A DNA stretch of 38,840 nucleotides from Bacteroidia bacterium (GTDB taxonomy: Bacteria; Bacteroidota; Bacteroidia; AKYH767-A; OLB10): the NCBI GenBank assembly GCA_016788185.1, contig JAEUTF010000105.1, positions 1 through 38,840 on the forward strand, in the 5' to 3' direction. Both the position numbers and the translations under genes were made by a program. The notes under the pieces are model-generated. The model made no database searches and was not told where the DNA came from. It worked only from the letters and a program-made list of their open reading frames with translations. Numbering within the stretch: the first letter of the stretch is position 1; the number at the start of each line of letters is the position of its first letter. Of the stretch, positions 2 to 25,911 are shown in pieces.

Positions 2-733
2 ATTTACGAAAACACATGCACCCTTTCGTTCGACAGTTCGGGGGATTCGCTGCACAAACGCGGCTACCGCGATTATACCAACCAGGCGCCCATCAACGAA
101 GCCCTGGCGGCGGCCCTGGTGATGCAAAGCGGCTGGGACCACAAAATGCCCCTGGCGGATTTTATGTGCGGCAGCGGCACCCTCCTGATTGAAGCGGCCC
201 TGCAAGCCCTGAACATCGCACCCAACAAACTGCGCAGGAAATTCGGTTTCATGGGCTGGAAAAATTATGATCCGAAACTTTGGAAAAAAGTACTGGATGA
301 AGCCCTCGCCGCTGAAAAAAAAGCGGAGGGTCTCAGCCTCTACGGATCCGATATCAGCGGAAGCGTGCTGGACAAAGCCCGGCAGAACATTGAACATGCC
401 GGCTTATCGGAGATCATCAAGCTGAAAAAATGCTCCTTCGAAAAATTTCCGGTACCGGCTCCAAAGGGCATGCTGATCTGCAACCCGCCCTACGGACTCC
501 GTATCGAACCCAAAGACATCCTGGATATGTACCAGCGGATGGGGGATAAAATGAAAAGGGATTTTAAAGGATGGACCTGCTGGATTTTCACCGGCAACCT
601 GGAAGTGGCGAAATTCATCGGGCTTCACCCCTCGAGAAAAATTCAACTCTACAACGGTCCCATAGAATGCCGTTTCCTGAAATTTGAAGTGTACGAAGGC
701 TCCAGAAAAGCCAAAAAGCAAGCGGAACAGTAG
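2..733 (+). CDS. THUMP/RlmL-type 23S rRNA guanine-N2 methyltransferase, 5' truncated
   Basis: C-terminal part of a class I SAM-dependent RNA methyltransferase of the RlmL/YcbY N-domain family, which methylates 23S rRNA. The frame is open from base 2, so the N-terminal ferredoxin-like and THUMP domains lie outside the window. Visible landmarks are the family motif SLHKRGYR near the left edge, the SAM-binding loop DFMCGSGTLLIEAAL, the acidic motif YGSDISG, and the catalytic CNPPYG motif typical of N-methyltransferases. The stop is TAG at 731-733. The next gene converges from the other strand 63 bases away. The family is clear; the exact target base is inferred from homology, so no symbol is given. 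Confidence 0.9.
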   Translation: MYENTCTLSFDSSGDSLHKRGYRDYTNQAPINEALAAALVMQSGWDHKMPLADFMCGSGTLLIEAALQALNIAPNKLRRKFGFMGWKNYDPKLWKKVLDEALAAEKKAEGLSLYGSDISGSVLDKARQNIEHAGLSEIIKLKKCSFEKFPVPAPKGMLICNPPYGLRIEPKDILDMYQRMGDKMKRDFKGWTCWIFTGNLEVAKFIGLHPSRKIQLYNGPIECRFLKFEVYEGSRKAKKQAEQ

Positions 734-2673: not shown

Positions 2674-5393
2674 GCCTTCACCTTGTATTTTCCCTTGCTC
2701 TTGCGGATGTTCACAGCTACCACCTTGTATTCCGGACACATCGCCTCCGAATCTCTCTCGCTGCTGGTGATGATGTTGAGCAACACTTCGGGAAAGTGAA
2801 AGGTGGTGCTCAGCACGCCGGGTTTGACCTCATCGGTGATCCGGGCTTTGATATCGACCTTGCCACGGGGCGATTCCACGCAGACCATGTCGCCCTCTTC
2901 AATAAAATGTTTCTCCGCATCCGCAGGGTGTATCATCAGCACGTCTTCGGTAAGGATCTTTACATTTCCGGTACGCCGGGTCATGGTGCCGGCGTTATAG
3001 TGTTCCAGTTCGCGGTTGGTGGTGATGATGTAGGGATATTCCCTGCCGTTTTTAACGATTTCCTCCGTTTCCTTCCAGTCGAAATAATGAAACAAGCCCT
3101 TGCCGCGCTTGAAGCTTTCCGTATGCAGGATTTCCGTATCGCTGCCGTCGGCCAATACCGGCCATTGCTTGCCGTTATCGCCTAGATTCTCCCAGCTTAC
3201 GCCGGCGAAGAAAGGCACGATCCCGGAAATTTCCTGTAACAGGGTATCGGCACGATAGTCGCCTTGCGGGTATCCCATGCGGTTCATGATGTCCGCCATG
3301 ATCTGTCCATCGGGTTTGGTGCCCTCCAGCGGCTCCACCACGGCCTGCACCTTCTGGATGCGTCGCTCGCCGTTGGTAAAGGTTCCGTCCTTTTCCAGAA
3401 AGGAGGATGCCGGTAACACCACGTGGGCATAATTACAGGTTTCGGTATGGAAGATCTCCTGCACCACCAATAAATCCAGGCTCTGCATGGCCTTCACCAC
3501 GAGGTTGGTATTGGGATCCGTTTGCACTAGGTCCTCGCCCATCAGCCACATGGCTTTGAGCTTTCCTTCGATGGAGGCATCGTACATTTCCGGAATCTTC
3601 AGTCCTTTACCCATGGGAATTTTCACCTTGTAAAACTCCTCGTACATCCGGTTGATTTCCGGATCATAGGAATTCAGGTAGCCGGCTCCCTGATGCGGCT
3701 GGCACCCCATATCGGCCGCGCCCTGCACATTGTTTTGTCCGCGGAGGGGATTCACGCCCACTCCCCGTCGACCGATGTTGCCGGTTATCATGGCCAGGTC
3801 GGAAATCAGCATGACGGTATAAGATCCCTGGCTGTGCTCCGTCACACCGAGACCGTGAAAGGACATGGCGTTGGGCGCCTTTGCATAGTCGATGGCGGCC
3901 GCGCGGGCGAGGTGCCTGTCGACACCCGTGATGCGCTCCAGCTCCTCCATCTTCAGCTTTAAAATCTGCTCCTTAAAACTTTCGTAGCCTTCGGTGCGCT
4001 GTTCAATGAATTCCTTTGCTTCGAGTCCTTCCGTAATGATGTAGTACAGGAGCATGTTCATCATGGCCACGTTGGTTCCGGGTCGCAATTGCAGGTGATG
4101 GGTGGCATAGCGGGCCAACTCCGTGCGGCGAGGGTCAATGACTATGGTCGGCTTTCCCTTCATCGCAAACTGCTTCAGCTTGGCGCCGGTCACCGGATGC
4201 GCATCCGTTGGATTCGCCCCGATCACCATGATGCAGTCGGTGTATTTCAGATCCACGATGGAATTGGTGGCCGCTCCCGTGCCGAAGGCGCGTTGCATTC
4301 CCAGGGCCGTTGGTGAATGGCAGACACGGGCGCAGGCATCGATGTTATTCGTGCCGATCACGGCCCGGATGAATTTCTGCATGAGGTAGTTTTCCTCGTT
4401 CGTGCAGCGTGCGGAAGAAATGCCGGCAATGGCATCCGGTCCGAACCGGGCTTTGATGTCACTGAGCCGTCCGGCTATGTAGTCATAGGCTTCGTCCCAG
4501 GTGGCCGGCTCCAGTTTCCCGTTGCGACGGATCTGCGGCGTGCGCAAACGGTCCGGATGGTTGTAAAAGGAAAAGGCAAAACGGCCTTTGAGGCAGGTAT
4601 GGCCCTGGTTCACCTCCGCATCGTAAGGCGCCTGGATCGACTTCACTTTGCCGTTCACTACGGCCACTTCGAGGTTGCAGCCTACCCCGCAATAGGTACA
4701 GATGGTGCGCACCTTTTTGTCGGCCACCACTGATTTCGATTCAAAAACGTCGGAGATGGCAGAGGTCGGACAGGCCTGGGCGCAGGCGCCGCAGCTGACA
4801 CAGTCCGACTCAAAAAAAGTATTGTTGAAACTCTTTATGATGTGGCTGTCGAAGCCTCTTCCGGCCATGCTCAGCACCAGTTCACCCTGCACTTCATCGC
4901 AGGCTCTGACACAGCGGGCGCAATTGATGCACTTGGAAAAATCGGAAGTCATGTAGGGATGACTTTTGTCCTTCTCGTAGTGCAAATGATTTTTACCGGC
5001 CGGATAACGAACATCCCGGATGCCGACGCGGGCGGCTACAGTCTGCAATTCGCAATTGTTGTTGACCTCGCAGGTGAGGCAGTCGAGCGGATGATCAGTC
5101 AGCACCAGTTCGACAATATTGCGGCGCAAGCGTTGGATCCTCTCTGAATCGGTATAAATGTAGGATCCGGGCATGACGGGTGTATGGCAGGAGGCCTGGG
5201 CTTTGGCCGGACCATCCTTCACCAAGGCCACGTCCACACTGCACACGCGACAGGCCCCATAGGGGTCCAGGTTGGGGGCATCGCAAAGGGTGGGTACAAA
5301 ATCCTTCCCGTAATGCCGGCGAACGAAATTCAGGATCGTTTCACCCTCTTGCAAGGAGTACAGTTTATCATTGATATAGGCTGTCTTTCCCAT
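2670..5393 (-). CDS. fdhA: NAD-linked formate dehydrogenase, molybdenum catalytic subunit
   Basis: A 907-residue cytoplasmic catalytic subunit oxidising formate to CO2. The N-terminus is NuoG-like: a 2Fe-2S site at C37, C48, C51 and C69, then H101/C105/C108/C114 for a 4Fe-4S cluster. Two ferredoxin-type clusters follow at C155-C165 and C198-C208. The molybdopterin domain starts with a further cluster (C232, C235, C239, C267), a lysine in CLKGRF, and the molybdenum ligand C358 followed by H359 in ARVCHSPT. The ligand is cysteine, not selenocysteine. The C-terminal part is a dinucleotide-binding barrel. It pairs with the flavin subunit 1 base upstream and overlaps moaCB by 4 bases. No Tat signal is present. 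Confidence 0.95.
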   Translation of the reverse strand: MGKTAYINDKLYSLQEGETILNFVRRHYGKDFVPTLCDAPNLDPYGACRVCSVDVALVKDGPAKAQASCHTPVMPGSYIYTDSERIQRLRRNIVELVLTDHPLDCLTCEVNNNCELQTVAARVGIRDVRYPAGKNHLHYEKDKSHPYMTSDFSKCINCARCVRACDEVQGELVLSMAGRGFDSHIIKSFNNTFFESDCVSCGACAQACPTSAISDVFESKSVVADKKVRTICTYCGVGCNLEVAVVNGKVKSIQAPYDAEVNQGHTCLKGRFAFSFYNHPDRLRTPQIRRNGKLEPATWDEAYDYIAGRLSDIKARFGPDAIAGISSARCTNEENYLMQKFIRAVIGTNNIDACARVCHSPTALGMQRAFGTGAATNSIVDLKYTDCIMVIGANPTDAHPVTGAKLKQFAMKGKPTIVIDPRRTELARYATHHLQLRPGTNVAMMNMLLYYIITEGLEAKEFIEQRTEGYESFKEQILKLKMEELERITGVDRHLARAAAIDYAKAPNAMSFHGLGVTEHSQGSYTVMLISDLAMITGNIGRRGVGVNPLRGQNNVQGAADMGCQPHQGAGYLNSYDPEINRMYEEFYKVKIPMGKGLKIPEMYDASIEGKLKAMWLMGEDLVQTDPNTNLVVKAMQSLDLLVVQEIFHTETCNYAHVVLPASSFLEKDGTFTNGERRIQKVQAVVEPLEGTKPDGQIMADIMNRMGYPQGDYRADTLLQEISGIVPFFAGVSWENLGDNGKQWPVLADGSDTEILHTESFKRGKGLFHYFDWKETEEIVKNGREYPYIITTNRELEHYNAGTMTRRTGNVKILTEDVLMIHPADAEKHFIEEGDMVCVESPRGKVDIKARITDEVKPGVLSTTFHFPEVLLNIITSSERDSEAMCPEYKVVAVNIRKSKGKYKVKA

Positions 5394-19795: not shown

Positions 19796-22285
19796 ATGAA
19801 GAACATCCTACTCAGTTTCCTGCTGCTCTTGTCCGGAGGAGTATTTGCTCAATCCAGTACCGACCTGTATGAAAGACTAAAAAAGCTGAATGTAACAGGC
19901 ACTGTACTCTATGTGGCCGCTCATCCCGACGATGAAAACACAAGGCTGATCACCTGGCTTTCGAAAGAAAAGCAGTTTCGTACGGCCTATATTTCCCTGA
20001 CACGCGGTGATGGCGGTCAAAACCTGATCGGTTCCGAACTGGGTGTTGAATTGGGCCTGATCCGAACCAGGGAACTCATGGCCGCCAGAACCATTGATGG
20101 CGGTGAACAATTTTTTACAAGGGCCTACGATTTCGGTTTTTCCAAAAGGCCGGAGGAAACCCTTCAGATCTGGGAGAAAGAAAAGGTGCTCGAAGATTTT
20201 GTGCAGGTGATCCGTACACTTAAACCGGACATCATCATTTGCCGTTTCCCTCCCGACAGCAGGGCCGGACACGGGCATCACTCCTCCAGCGCCATCCTGG
20301 CCCGTGAAGCCTTTGATGCAGCCGCCGATGCAACACGGTTTCCGGAACAGGCAAAGGAACACGGAACGTGGAAAGTAAAACGATTGTACTGGAACACCTT
20401 CAACTTCGGGAGCAACAATACCACCAACGAACAACAACGCAAAGTGGATGTCGGAGGATTTAACGCGCTCAGCGGAAAGAGCAACGGTGAACTTTCGGCA
20501 GAGAGCCGTTCGCAACACAAAAGCCAGGGCTTTGGCGTGCCCAGCCAGCGCGGAACTCTGATGGAGTATTTTGAACCGATAGCAGGCGACACCTCCGTGG
20601 CTGACCCCTTCGTGCAACTGAACAATTACTGGGGAAGCACGGAAAACGGAAAAGCCATTTCCGCTGCCATTAGTGCTGCGGCAGAAAAGTACAATTTTCT
20701 GCACCCCGAAGCTTCTATTCAGGACCTCTTGCGGATCCGAAAGATGGTGAACCAACTCAACCCTGACCCTATCAGGGATCAGAAACTGAAAGAACTGGAA
20801 TCGGTGATTCTGGATTGTGCAGGACTATGGACCGCCGCCTACTCGTGGAGTGACCAGTATGCCGTGAAAGACACCCTGCATGTCGGGCTGCAGGCCGTTT
20901 TACGTAATTATAAGGACGCGAAAATCATCCTGCACACCAATGCGTTCCTGGACAGCAGTCTTGAGTTTTCATTGCTGCAACAAAAACCACTTACGCAAAA
21001 ACTGGAGTTGAAAGGATCACTTTCTGACACACAACCGTACTGGCTGCAGAAGGATCACCAGCCGGGTGTCTTTCAGATGGAAGACCGCAATCAAACCGCC
21101 AAACCCTGGAACGATCCTCCGGTCCTGCTGCAAGCCAGCCTGGTTCTTTTTGACGAACGCATCCCGTTCAGTATTCCGGTCCGTTACAAGGAAACGGACC
21201 CTGTCAAAGGAGAACTCATCCATCCGCTTTGTATCAGCCCCAAACTAACGGGTACCCTTTCCGAACAAGTATCAGTTTTTAATTCCGTTCAGCCACGCTC
21301 CTATCAGTTGAATCTGACGTACTGGGGAACAACTCCGGAAACCCTGATGGTTGGCGCAGCCACTGCAGGACCGGAGGACTGGAAGATCCACTTCAGAGAT
21401 ACGGCCATTTATTTCAAAGGGAAAAACGATAAACATGTCTTGAGTTTTACAGCCGAACCCCGCAGCCAGTCGGCGGCCAGGGGCACCATCCGTTTCGGAT
21501 ACACCGGAAGCGACGGCCTGAAATCCGAATTAAAAGGGAGAAGGAAAATCAGCTACGGCCACATCCCCACCATCACCTGGTTTCCTGCTTTAAAAACCGA
21601 GCTTCAATATGTACCCGTTAAAGCGGGCTGTAAAAATATCCTGTATATAAAGGGGGCCGGTGACGATGTGGCTCCTGTATTGAGACAAATCGGCTACCGT
21701 GTTGATGAAGTCAGCGCCCGGGAAATCCGCGAAAAGAAACTGGAAGACTATGACGCCATTTTGACCGGCATCAGGGCCTATAACACCGACGATGATTTGC
21801 CGGAGGTGTACGACCGAATCATGAAGTTTGTGGCACAGGGCGGCACTTTTCTGGTTCAATACAATACCAACTCCAATCTCCATCCGGCCCGGTACATGAG
21901 TCCCTTCCCCTACGCGATCAGCCGGAACCGGGTCACGGAAGAAAAAGCGGAAGTGCGTTTTACGGATCCCAGCCACCCCTTGCTGAACCGACCCAATAAA
22001 ATCAGTGCAGGCGACTTTGACGGATGGGTTCAGGAAAGGGGGCTTTATTTTGCCACGAAGATCGATTCTGCGTTTGCCAATCTACTGCTCATGAACGACC
22101 ACGGTGAAAAGCCGCAGGAAGGCAGTCTGATCACCTGCTCCTACGGAAAGGGACGTTACATTTATACTGGACTCGCGTTCTTCCGGCAACTTCCGATGGG
22201 GGTTCCCGGTGCGATACGTCTCTTCGCCAATCTCATCGGCGAATACGATCACACAAAGGCACAGCAGGAAAAAAAAACCAAATAA
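19796..22285 (+). CDS. Secreted PIG-L family deacetylase with C-terminal amidotransferase-like domain
   Basis: An 829-residue exported protein. The signal peptide ends near GGVFAQ (19). The PIG-L/LmbE zinc deacetylase domain follows, with AAHPDDE at 41-47 and GHGHHSSSAILAREAF further on; such enzymes remove N-acetyl groups from sugars. After a beta-rich middle part, the last 220 residues resemble a class I glutamine amidotransferase/ThuA-like fold (KNILYIKGAGDD, then YDAILTGIRAYN and GGTFLVQYN). I chose the ATG at 19796 over a TTG five codons upstream because it begins the signal peptide. The next two genes follow within 8 bases and by overlap, so deacetylation outside the membrane and uptake may be linked. 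The substrate is unknown. Confidence 0.88.
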   Translation: MKNILLSFLLLLSGGVFAQSSTDLYERLKKLNVTGTVLYVAAHPDDENTRLITWLSKEKQFRTAYISLTRGDGGQNLIGSELGVELGLIRTRELMAARTIDGGEQFFTRAYDFGFSKRPEETLQIWEKEKVLEDFVQVIRTLKPDIIICRFPPDSRAGHGHHSSSAILAREAFDAAADATRFPEQAKEHGTWKVKRLYWNTFNFGSNNTTNEQQRKVDVGGFNALSGKSNGELSAESRSQHKSQGFGVPSQRGTLMEYFEPIAGDTSVADPFVQLNNYWGSTENGKAISAAISAAAEKYNFLHPEASIQDLLRIRKMVNQLNPDPIRDQKLKELESVILDCAGLWTAAYSWSDQYAVKDTLHVGLQAVLRNYKDAKIILHTNAFLDSSLEFSLLQQKPLTQKLELKGSLSDTQPYWLQKDHQPGVFQMEDRNQTAKPWNDPPVLLQASLVLFDERIPFSIPVRYKETDPVKGELIHPLCISPKLTGTLSEQVSVFNSVQPRSYQLNLTYWGTTPETLMVGAATAGPEDWKIHFRDTAIYFKGKNDKHVLSFTAEPRSQSAARGTIRFGYTGSDGLKSELKGRRKISYGHIPTITWFPALKTELQYVPVKAGCKNILYIKGAGDDVAPVLRQIGYRVDEVSAREIREKKLEDYDAILTGIRAYNTDDDLPEVYDRIMKFVAQGGTFLVQYNTNSNLHPARYMSPFPYAISRNRVTEEKAEVRFTDPSHPLLNRPNKISAGDFDGWVQERGLYFATKIDSAFANLLLMNDHGEKPQEGSLITCSYGKGRYIYTGLAFFRQLPMGVPGAIRLFANLIGEYDHTKAQQEKKTK

Positions 22286-22293
22286 ACAGCACG

Positions 22294-22404
22294 ATGGAAT
22301 CCGGAAGCAAACACGCTGTCTGGAACAGGAATTATATCTTCCTGTTCCTCTTTCTGTTGCTTCAAATGGTCTTTTATTACCTTTTCAGCCTGTACTTCGC
22401 ATGA
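22294..22404 (+). CDS. 36-residue single-span membrane protein coupled to the symporter
   Basis: A small reading frame of 36 codons plus stop. It begins MESGSKHAVWNRNYIF with positive charges and continues as an almost unbroken hydrophobic stretch rich in L, F and Y (residues about 14-36), which fits one membrane span with the N-terminus inside. It starts 8 bases after the deacetylase stop, and its TGA overlaps the symporter ATG as ATGA. The position recalls the small membrane partners found ahead of some SSS symporters (for example YhdT before PanF), but I cannot assign it to a family. Coding status is inferred from the clean overlap and hydrophobic composition. Confidence 0.65.
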   Translation: MESGSKHAVWNRNYIFLFLFLLLQMVFYYLFSLYFA

Positions 22405-24122
22405 GTCAACTCGATTGGGCAGTACTCTTTCTGACCCTGGCGGGCATTGTATTGTACGGCATGTACAAAAGCCGGGGCCAGACCGATCTGGAGAGCTATT
22501 TTCTCAACAACCGGTCCATGCCCTGGTACATTGTACTTTTCTCTATCATGGGCACACAAGCCAGTGCCATTACTTTCCTTTCCGCTCCCGGACAAGCTTA
22601 TACCGATGGGATGCGCTTCGTTCAGTATTATTTCGGGCTCCCTCTGGCCATGATCGTTATCTGTGCTTTTTTTCTACCGGTTTATCAAAAACTCAACCTG
22701 TACACCGCCTATGAATTTCTCGAAAAGCGTTTTGACCGGAAAACCCGGTTGCTCACCTCCTTTCTGTTCCTGCTCCAGCGAGGACTTTCTACCGGGATCA
22801 GCATCTACGCGCCTTCCTTAATACTCTCATCGCTCCTGGGCTGGAACATTCATCTGACGAATCTGCTCATGGGCGGGCTCCTGATTCTTTATACCGTAAG
22901 TGGCGGTGTAAAAGCCATCGCATATACACAAACACAACAGCTCCTGATCATTTTCTGCGGTATGTTTCTTTCCGGTTACATGGTGGTAAAACTTCTTCCG
23001 GAGCATATCGGTTTCTTCGATTCCCTGCATCTGGCCGGAGCTTCCGGAAAGCTCAATGTCATTACGACCGGCATCAGCGATGGTGATTTCAACTGGAAAG
23101 ATAAATACAACCTCTTCAGCGGAATCATCGGTGGTTTCTTTCTCGCACTTTCCTACTTCGGCACCGATCAATCGCAGGTCGGCCGATACCTGGCGGCCGG
23201 AAACCTTCAGGAAAGCCGCAGGGGATTATTGATGAATGGCATTGTGAAAATCCCCATGCAGTTTCTCATCCTGCTGGTCGGTAGTCTTGTGTTCAGTTTT
23301 TACGTGATTTACGAAGGACCGGTGCATTTCAATACACAACAATTTGAAAAAGCAAAAAGACAGGAAGCCGGACAGGAATTGCGGCAAATTGAATCCGGAT
23401 TCAACGAAATCCGAAAAGAACAGCGTACCATAGCGCTGGCCTACCTGGAGGCGAAGTCCGATCAACAGGAAGCAAAGGCCATTGAACTGAAAAATGAACT
23501 TCGGGATCTGGATAGTCAGTCACAGGCACTTCGGAAAAAAGCCGCCACGGTGATTAAAAAAACCATGCCGCTCTCCGATTCAAACGACACCAATTACATC
23601 TTTTTACACTTTGTGGTGCACCATCTGCCGAAAGGCCTGGTCGGTCTGTTGGTGGCCATCATTTTTCTTGCCGCCTGGGGCTCGATTGCCGCCGCCCTGA
23701 ATTCACTGGCATCCACCTGCATCATCGACTGGCATCAACCCCTGCGACCCAAAGAAAGAACGGATAAAAGGAACCTTCAGCTTTCGCGCCTTTATACCTT
23801 TGGCTGGGGCGTTTTTTCCATCCTTGTAGCGTCTCTTGCGGGCAAACTGGGTTCTCTGATTGAAGCGGTCAATATACTGGGCTCCCTATTTTACGGCACC
23901 ATCCTGGGCATCTTTGTATCGGCCCTGTTCATCAAAAAGCTGAAAGGTGCGCATGTATTCTATGCAGCCCTCCTTACGGAAGTCATTGTGATCGCCGTCT
24001 ACTTTTCCGATGCCATCTCCTTTTTATGGCTGAACCTGATCGGCTGCGCGCTGGTGATTGTTTTCGCCGGCATTTCCGAATTAATTTTCCCCTATAAGGC
24101 CTCCACTGACCACAATCAGTAA
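22401..24122 (+). CDS. Sodium:solute symporter (SSS family) with a charged coiled-coil insertion
   Basis: A 573-residue membrane transporter of the SSS/LeuT-fold family, with about 13 hydrophobic segments. Typical pieces are the early FSIMGTQASAITFLSAPG segment, the TVSGGVKAIAYTQ loop and SYFGTDQSQVGRYLAA. Residues about 312-392 form a strongly charged, helical insertion (QQFEKAKRQEAGQELRQIE and onward) between two membrane spans, absent from textbook members such as PutP. I chose the ATG at 22401 because it overlaps the small upstream gene as ATGA and begins the first span; the frame is open further upstream only inside the deacetylase gene. It probably imports a sugar or sugar derivative with sodium. 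Confidence 0.9.
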   Translation: MSQLDWAVLFLTLAGIVLYGMYKSRGQTDLESYFLNNRSMPWYIVLFSIMGTQASAITFLSAPGQAYTDGMRFVQYYFGLPLAMIVICAFFLPVYQKLNLYTAYEFLEKRFDRKTRLLTSFLFLLQRGLSTGISIYAPSLILSSLLGWNIHLTNLLMGGLLILYTVSGGVKAIAYTQTQQLLIIFCGMFLSGYMVVKLLPEHIGFFDSLHLAGASGKLNVITTGISDGDFNWKDKYNLFSGIIGGFFLALSYFGTDQSQVGRYLAAGNLQESRRGLLMNGIVKIPMQFLILLVGSLVFSFYVIYEGPVHFNTQQFEKAKRQEAGQELRQIESGFNEIRKEQRTIALAYLEAKSDQQEAKAIELKNELRDLDSQSQALRKKAATVIKKTMPLSDSNDTNYIFLHFVVHHLPKGLVGLLVAIIFLAAWGSIAAALNSLASTCIIDWHQPLRPKERTDKRNLQLSRLYTFGWGVFSILVASLAGKLGSLIEAVNILGSLFYGTILGIFVSALFIKKLKGAHVFYAALLTEVIVIAVYFSDAISFLWLNLIGCALVIVFAGISELIFPYKASTDHNQ

Positions 24123-24884: not shown

Positions 24885-25721
24885 TTATTTCAAGGAGCTG
24901 ATCAATTTCTCATTCAGCCGCACATAGGTATCGTCACCCTCTTCCTTCGCTATGGCCATTGACCTGGTGGCGGTTTCGGTTGCTTCCTTTTTCATCCCAA
25001 GTTTCGCATAGCAATTGGCCTTTTGATGGATGTTCCAGTAGGCGCGGGGATTACTCGCAATGGCCTTATCGTACCAATCCAGCGCCAGTTTCAGGTCCTT
25101 GCCATTTTCCATGTAATAATTGGCAGCTGCTCCGTAGGGCCTGTTATCTTTGATCACATACCGCTCTATGTCTTTCATGATTCTGGCATCGATGTCGGTG
25201 GAAATCGGCATTGAAACCATGGTTTTATCCCAGCAAAGCTGCAGTTCGCAGGAGGTAGGCCGAATGTTTCCAATATTGATGCTGAAGGTTTCCATCTTCT
25301 CTGCCATCGATACCGGACGGGCTTTCACACGCACCACATCTTCTTCCTGCTTGTAGGCATCGGCGCTGGTGGTCGAGGTGCTTTTGCTGATGATCAGAAT
25401 CCATTCAGAAGCTCCCGGAATGGTCAGCAGACCATATTTACCGGGATGAACTTTCACGCCGCCGATGCTCACTGTATCACCAAAAGTAATCGTAGTCGCA
25501 TTGTTGGCTCCCGTTCTCCAGATGGCGCCAAACGGTACTACATCGCCAAAAATGGTCCGGTCCTTTACACTAGGCCTGGAATACGACACCTCGATGGTCG
25601 ACAGTCCGAAATCCTGCTTTAATGTTTGAGAAGGTGAAGGAGCAGGTACTTTCAAAGTTTGTGCTGTAGCTGACATTTCCAATGAAACGAGGGCCATGAC
25701 GCACAGAATAATTTTTTTCAT
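24885..25721 (-). CDS. DUF2911 domain protein with C-terminal TPR-like repeats
   Basis: A 278-residue exported protein. The signal peptide is MKKIILCVMALVSLEMSATA. The DUF2911 domain covers about 25-175, with VSYSRPSVKDRTIFG, FGAIWRTGANNATTITF and GKYGLLTIPG, the family's conserved blocks. The last 80 residues form TPR-like helices (ALDWYDKAIASNP, then ANCYAKLGMKKEAT). The molecular function of DUF2911 is unknown. I chose the ATG at 25721 because it opens the signal peptide and has AAGGAAA just ahead; the frame extends 28 codons further without support. Confidence 0.88.
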   Translation of the reverse strand: MKKIILCVMALVSLEMSATAQTLKVPAPSPSQTLKQDFGLSTIEVSYSRPSVKDRTIFGDVVPFGAIWRTGANNATTITFGDTVSIGGVKVHPGKYGLLTIPGASEWILIISKSTSTTSADAYKQEEDVVRVKARPVSMAEKMETFSINIGNIRPTSCELQLCWDKTMVSMPISTDIDARIMKDIERYVIKDNRPYGAAANYYMENGKDLKLALDWYDKAIASNPRAYWNIHQKANCYAKLGMKKEATETATRSMAIAKEEGDDTYVRLNEKLISSLK

Positions 25722-25911
25722 AGTGTTTCCTTTGTTTGAATATGCAAATTTCAACATTAATCCTTTGCCTGCGGCCGGATACGATGGCGATTTACCCTTT
25801 GACATCCAGCAAAGTAATAAAATTCAGTCCTTTCATGTGCATCCTTTCCCTTGAACCAGTGGGGATCATCCCTGAAAAGCAGGATGCTTAAATTTCATAG
25901 TTTAGCCTTCC

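Follow-up and report, generated by a model that had tools for sequence, protein, structure and literature searches.

A conserved one-helix small protein, encoded before a sodium:solute symporter in Bacteroidota, as a probable accessory subunit

Introduction

What does a frame of only 36 codons encode when it lies between the gene of a PIG-L family deacetylase and that of a sodium:solute symporter (SSS/SSF), and could its product belong to the transporter? The question arises in a stretch of 38,840 nucleotides from a Bacteroidia bacterium (contig JAEUTF010000105.1), called here the window. A preliminary description of this DNA had proposed that the frame fills the gap between deacetylase and symporter, that it encodes a membrane protein which is hydrophobic after a positive N-terminus, that it shares ATGA with the symporter start, and that the protein may be a required subunit of the permease; the proposal was staked on the preservation of the frame in relatives and on an excess of synonymous changes. 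As a rule, transporters of the SSS family are regarded as machines made of one protein.

Results

The features seen in the window held on inspection. The small gene occupies positions 22294–22404 of the forward strand, stop codon included, and its 36 codons (ATG...TGA) translate as MESGSKHAVWNRNYIFLFLFLLLQMVFYYLFSLYFA. It starts after a gap of 8 nt from the end of the PIG-L gene (19796–22285, forward strand; PF02585, E=7e-14), whose product has a signal-peptide-like N-terminus and which is probably in the same operon as the small gene and the symporter, and its stop codon (TGA) shares the ATGA at 22401–22404 with the symporter ATG (22401–22403). The N-terminus carries K6, H7 and R12, there is no charged residue beyond residue 13, and the single hydrophobic stretch corresponds to one transmembrane (TM) helix, predicted from hydrophobicity and the helical conservation moment at residues ~14–33 (22333–22392, forward strand). 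As the flank on the N-terminal side is more positive than that on the C-terminal side, an N-in/C-out orientation is predicted.

When the genome was searched with a profile of the relatives, this frame gave the best match (E=5.5e-9), the runner-up being at 0.04. No model of Pfam or NCBIfam matches the 36-aa protein of the window, no corresponding model is found for 78 members of the family among the matches listed, and a profile search of PDB with the family gave no match; in the literature, within a coverage that leaves most subscription journals outside, no paper on such a symporter partner in Bacteroidota was found.

The loci for comparison were selected on the symporter, and the small frame played no part in the choice; 80 loci of named genomes and 30 from a phylum draw were added to the family of the window. 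In this family, all the orthologous symporters with readable upstream DNA are preceded by a short frame, with the pattern W...Y...L..QI..Y..(T)..(F/Y)S, which ends at or just before the symporter start, whatever gene lies further upstream. Over the whole set, the frame is indeed preserved in relatives: the profile finds it in 115 of the 124 symporter loci, with the exact ATGA overlap in 102, and at a larger distance in two further loci (L109 and L133), the upstream region of one locus (L059) being cut off by the end of its contig. The genera that carry it include Chitinophaga, Segetibacter, Chryseobacterium, Pedobacter, Dyadobacter and Spirosoma.

The phylum draw comprised 395 genomes, and the symporter was found at E<=1e-100 in 143 of them (144 genes). 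A profile built from 78 small proteins (A3) gave 130 matches at E<=0.01, 103 of which lie directly upstream of a listed symporter and on the same strand, with gaps of 0 to ~95 nt; among the 54 matches with E<=1e-8 the proportion is 52 to two, the remaining pair being found beside a broken symporter (G050) and as a detached copy (G298). The upstream DNA of the 41 symporters with no profile match was read by eye, and in front of 32 a divergent ORF of ~24–45 aa, with one helix, was recognized by a criterion of hydrophobicity looser than the profile; when representatives of these are aligned, the conserved W/Y and the I/F register are kept, and often the T. Thus, a one-helix ORF (~24–48 aa) adjoins 135 of the 144 symporters (103 by profile and 32 divergent), and for the nine others, the gene lies elsewhere in five genomes and none is found in four (G136, G159, G167 and G185). 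The control consisted of 14 distant SSS paralogues (26–30% identical) that these genomes also encode and that were readable upstream; a similar frame, short and hydrophobic, precedes one of them, and it begins with TTG. The orthologous symporter was not found in the plasmid collection. By this distribution, the small gene is shown to accompany a single SSS subfamily throughout the phylum, and judged by its frame, profile, homologues and substitutions (see below), 22294–22404 is a genuine protein-coding gene conserved across Bacteroidota.

Two individual loci deserve mention on their own account. In the locus of G050 (L174), an intact small ORF stands before a symporter that is apparently broken by a frameshift or an assembly error. 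In L089, the usual small ORF is missing and an unrelated hydrophobic, lysine-rich ORF of 51 aa (~4846–5001, MAQNNKRRSPVFAMVVGLGLGLLIALVRKKIALGLLIGILVAAIIYKRDKR), which also ends in an ATGA overlap with the symporter, is found in its place, perhaps as a non-homologous replacement.

The neighborhood raises the possibility that the product is a small membrane protein with a role of its own, such as binding PIG-L or another envelope protein, and that it is simply co-expressed with the symporter. Contact with the symporter is, after all, something that we infer, and the PIG-L gene lies upstream in 72 of the 80 loci. However, loci with no PIG-L gene retain the small gene beside the symporter (for example L086, L090, L097, L101 and L104), and PIG-L persists where the small gene has been lost (L182–L184, L084 and L085), to the point of abutting the symporter in L182–L184; furthermore, the draw has no profile match at E<=1e-8 in any genome that lacks the symporter or its remnant. 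Since the small gene is independent of PIG-L and PIG-L outlasts it, the partner would be the symporter, and an independent role appears unlikely. Dependence of the small gene on the PIG-L gene was likewise rejected, as the former is present where the latter is missing. Another neighbor, encoded on the reverse strand at 24885–25805 of the window and presumably DUF2911-like, often adjoins the symporter locus, with 38 ORFs of its cluster in the 80 loci.

The excess of synonymous changes was sought in disjoint pairs chosen by the similarity of their symporters. Pooled over the family, pS is 0.61 and pN 0.19, which gives an omega of ~0.17 for the small gene, a rough value because many pairs are saturated in dS, and in the same comparison the omega of the symporter is 0.06. 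The unsaturated pairs agree, with 14 synonymous and 2 nonsynonymous changes in L090/L097, 4 and 2 in L009/L011, and 18 and 4 in L104/L134. The pair nearest to the window (L001/L003) is saturated, and therefore the test holds for the family and not for the window alone; at that level, the substitutions show that the small gene is under purifying selection.

What is conserved has, in addition, a helical period. In 89 non-redundant members, the Fourier spectrum of conservation has its maximum at 100 degrees per residue (p=0.0006 by permutation), and the conserved positions, numbered back from the C-terminus (W-27, Y-23, V-20, L-16, I-12, F-9, F-6, T-5 and F-2), form a pattern, W..WY..V...L...I..F..FT..F, which occupies one face of the helix. 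In the peptide of the window this face would be represented by Y14, F17, L21, M25, F28 and S32, with W10 before the helix and F35 after it. A lone TM helix with one conserved face is what should be expected if the helix packs against a partner. When covariation was sought over 94 pairs of small protein and symporter (Meff 48, the number of effective sequences), the scores did not rise above a within-clade permutation null, and no interface was located.

The gene is not always found beside the symporter. Four genomes (G077, G049, G123 and G061), all of one genus, have no small ORF next to it, and their orthologous gene, of 38 aa (MEEENSTTNWTKTYIAVFITGIVFILIFWAFTSLFNLP), is encoded on the symporter's strand, 15.3 kb farther upstream; in a sister genome (G088), the small gene adjoins the symporter (MENQNPEETNWKRTYTQVFIWGVVCILLFYWFTSTFNLP). 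The detached copy of G077 (L224, 1688–1804) stands behind another gene, which we take to be WbqC-like. In G298, the copy (L175, 485–631) comes after an unrelated ORF, ~109 kb from the symporter on the same contig, and none is found beside the symporter. A symporter tree built with FastTree (165 tips, rooted at the midpoint) gives adjacency as the ancestral state and counts 8 losses of it, two of which are the detachments. Several lineages have no detectable small gene (L182–L184, L084/L085, L065/L072 and L198), and thus it would be dispensable there.

These observations bear on a further explanation, that the short ORF is a leader for translational coupling, which opens the symporter start or delivers ribosomes to it, its product having no function. 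The ATGA overlap of 102 of the 124 loci is what such a leader would present, and there is a precedent in cbrX, for which such a role has been proposed with respect to cbrA, the downstream gene, whose product has an SLC5 domain (cited in PMC9100948). However, it is the amino-acid sequence itself that is conserved, and not the overlap alone; one helix face is maintained; gaps of up to ~95 nt separate some profile matches from the symporter; and the gene is not always in cis, as a gene kept at 15.3 kb or ~109 kb would act in trans, as a protein and not merely as a leader. It is therefore quite improbable that the ORF is nothing but a leader, although coupling may be an added role of it, and the overlap leads us to infer that the translation of the symporter is coupled to that of the small ORF. 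As for a chance open frame, 36 codons are few and hydrophobic codons are common in such frames, but conservation throughout the phylum, synonymous-rich change and a unique profile match led to its rejection and make it scarcely credible.

The symporter itself (22401–24122, forward strand, 573 aa) matches PF00474 (E=6e-34, 118 bits for a cut-off of 22.8) and TIGR00813 (208.3 bits for a cut-off of 184), and its AF2 model (pLDDT 87) has 13 predicted TM helices, TM0 to TM12, by reading of the helix list. The closest structures to the AF2 model of an orthologue with 61% identity (L042) are the sodium/iodide symporter, the sialic-acid symporter SiaT and the human SGLT1/2 (Z ~33); the alignment with SiaT (5nva; Z 40.5, 462 residues) places it in the LeuT-type SSS fold. 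The structural alignment of L042 with SGLT2 spans only 21..549, and the model ends after TM12, so the symporter would have no equivalent of TM13. The small protein was also modelled fused to the L042 symporter, by means of a TAA read as Q, a modelling device which makes no claim of read-through, and with an alignment of three paired rows; it was predicted as one helix at a moderate pLDDT of ~70–75, and a docking site is not established by this model.

The symporter has a further peculiarity between TM7 and TM8, where a helical hairpin is predicted to be inserted (residues ~324–388; 23370–23564 of the window). It is found across the subfamily with a poorly conserved sequence, and one might guess that it faces the periplasm and meets the PIG-L enzyme.

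Discussion

Taken together, the small protein is probably a one-helix accessory subunit of the adjoining SSS symporter. The preliminary description had gone further in calling it a required subunit: the idea of a small partner comes out strengthened by the helix face and by the detached copies, but the word required is too strong, because some lineages have lost the gene.

The way in which such a subunit would operate can be outlined. The small protein would be made first, and as its stop overlaps the symporter start, the two proteins would be produced in coupled amounts and at one site. It would insert into the inner membrane with the N-terminus inside and the C-terminus outside, according to its positive N-flank, and its conserved face (W/Y/V/L/I/F/T/F) would pack onto the exterior of the 13-helix symporter, in such a way that the helix would remain off the path of the substrate and would stabilize the symporter, or aid its insertion or assembly, in a role like that of MAP17. 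As regards the substrate, the secreted or periplasmic PIG-L deacetylase encoded next door suggests that it could be similar to an amino sugar.

In a broader and more tentative reading, which we consider possible rather than likely, this previously unmodelled, minimal single-helix family would constitute, throughout the phylum, an additional and detachable helix of SSS symporters with 13 helices, a convergent bacterial counterpart of the SGLT2-MAP17 pair. If this were true, a tiny partner present across a phylum would alter the way in which these transporters are cloned and assayed, as expression of the symporter by itself might yield a false-negative result, and it would offer a small bacterial model for the control of an SGLT-type transporter by one added helix, a question that SGLT2-MAP17 also poses. 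The small gene is also a clear case of a gene of ~36 codons that has no model in the family libraries.

Comparison with Known Systems

Small partners of SSS proteins and coupled small ORFs are already known, and what appears to be new, with respect to Pfam, NCBIfam and the sequences of PDB, is this family. KdpF, AcrZ and CydX are single-helix accessory proteins of ~30–50 aa in large membrane complexes; the small protein shares with them the minimal one-helix size class, but those complexes are others, and no sequence relation appears in the profile libraries (for the relatives, among the matches listed). Closer in context are the proteins that we take to be the bacterial small SSS partners, namely DUF485 (YjcH-ActP), DUF3311 (beside MctP), DUF4212/TIGR03647 and YhdT-PanF, which resemble the present case in that a small hydrophobic protein is encoded directly upstream of an SSS permease. 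Partners of this type have ~60–100 aa and mostly two helices, and differ from the 36-aa protein in being longer; DUF485, DUF3311 and DUF4212 do not match the protein of the window, and no model of these partners, YhdT included, appears for the 78 family members among the matches listed.

In Pseudomonas, cbrX is reported to be a small ORF co-transcribed and translationally coupled with cbrA, which encodes a kinase with an SLC5 domain (cited in PMC9100948). The likeness lies in a small ORF placed before a gene whose product has an SLC5 (SSS) domain, and the difference in that the role known there is coupling to a sensor kinase, whereas the small gene described here also occurs detached.

The human MAP17 (PDZK1IP1), with ~114 aa, is longer than the 36-aa protein, its gene does not overlap that of the transporter, and it has no Pfam match in the protein of the window and is absent for the relatives among the matches listed. 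It is a single-TM auxiliary subunit of SGLT2 that binds TM13, and a stabilizing role has been proposed for it (PMC10803289). The symporter described here is without that helix; however, in both cases one TM helix would accompany a transporter of the SSS fold, SGLT2 being itself a structural relative of L042. By analogy, MAP17 would thus be a protein similar in role, unrelated in sequence and larger in size.
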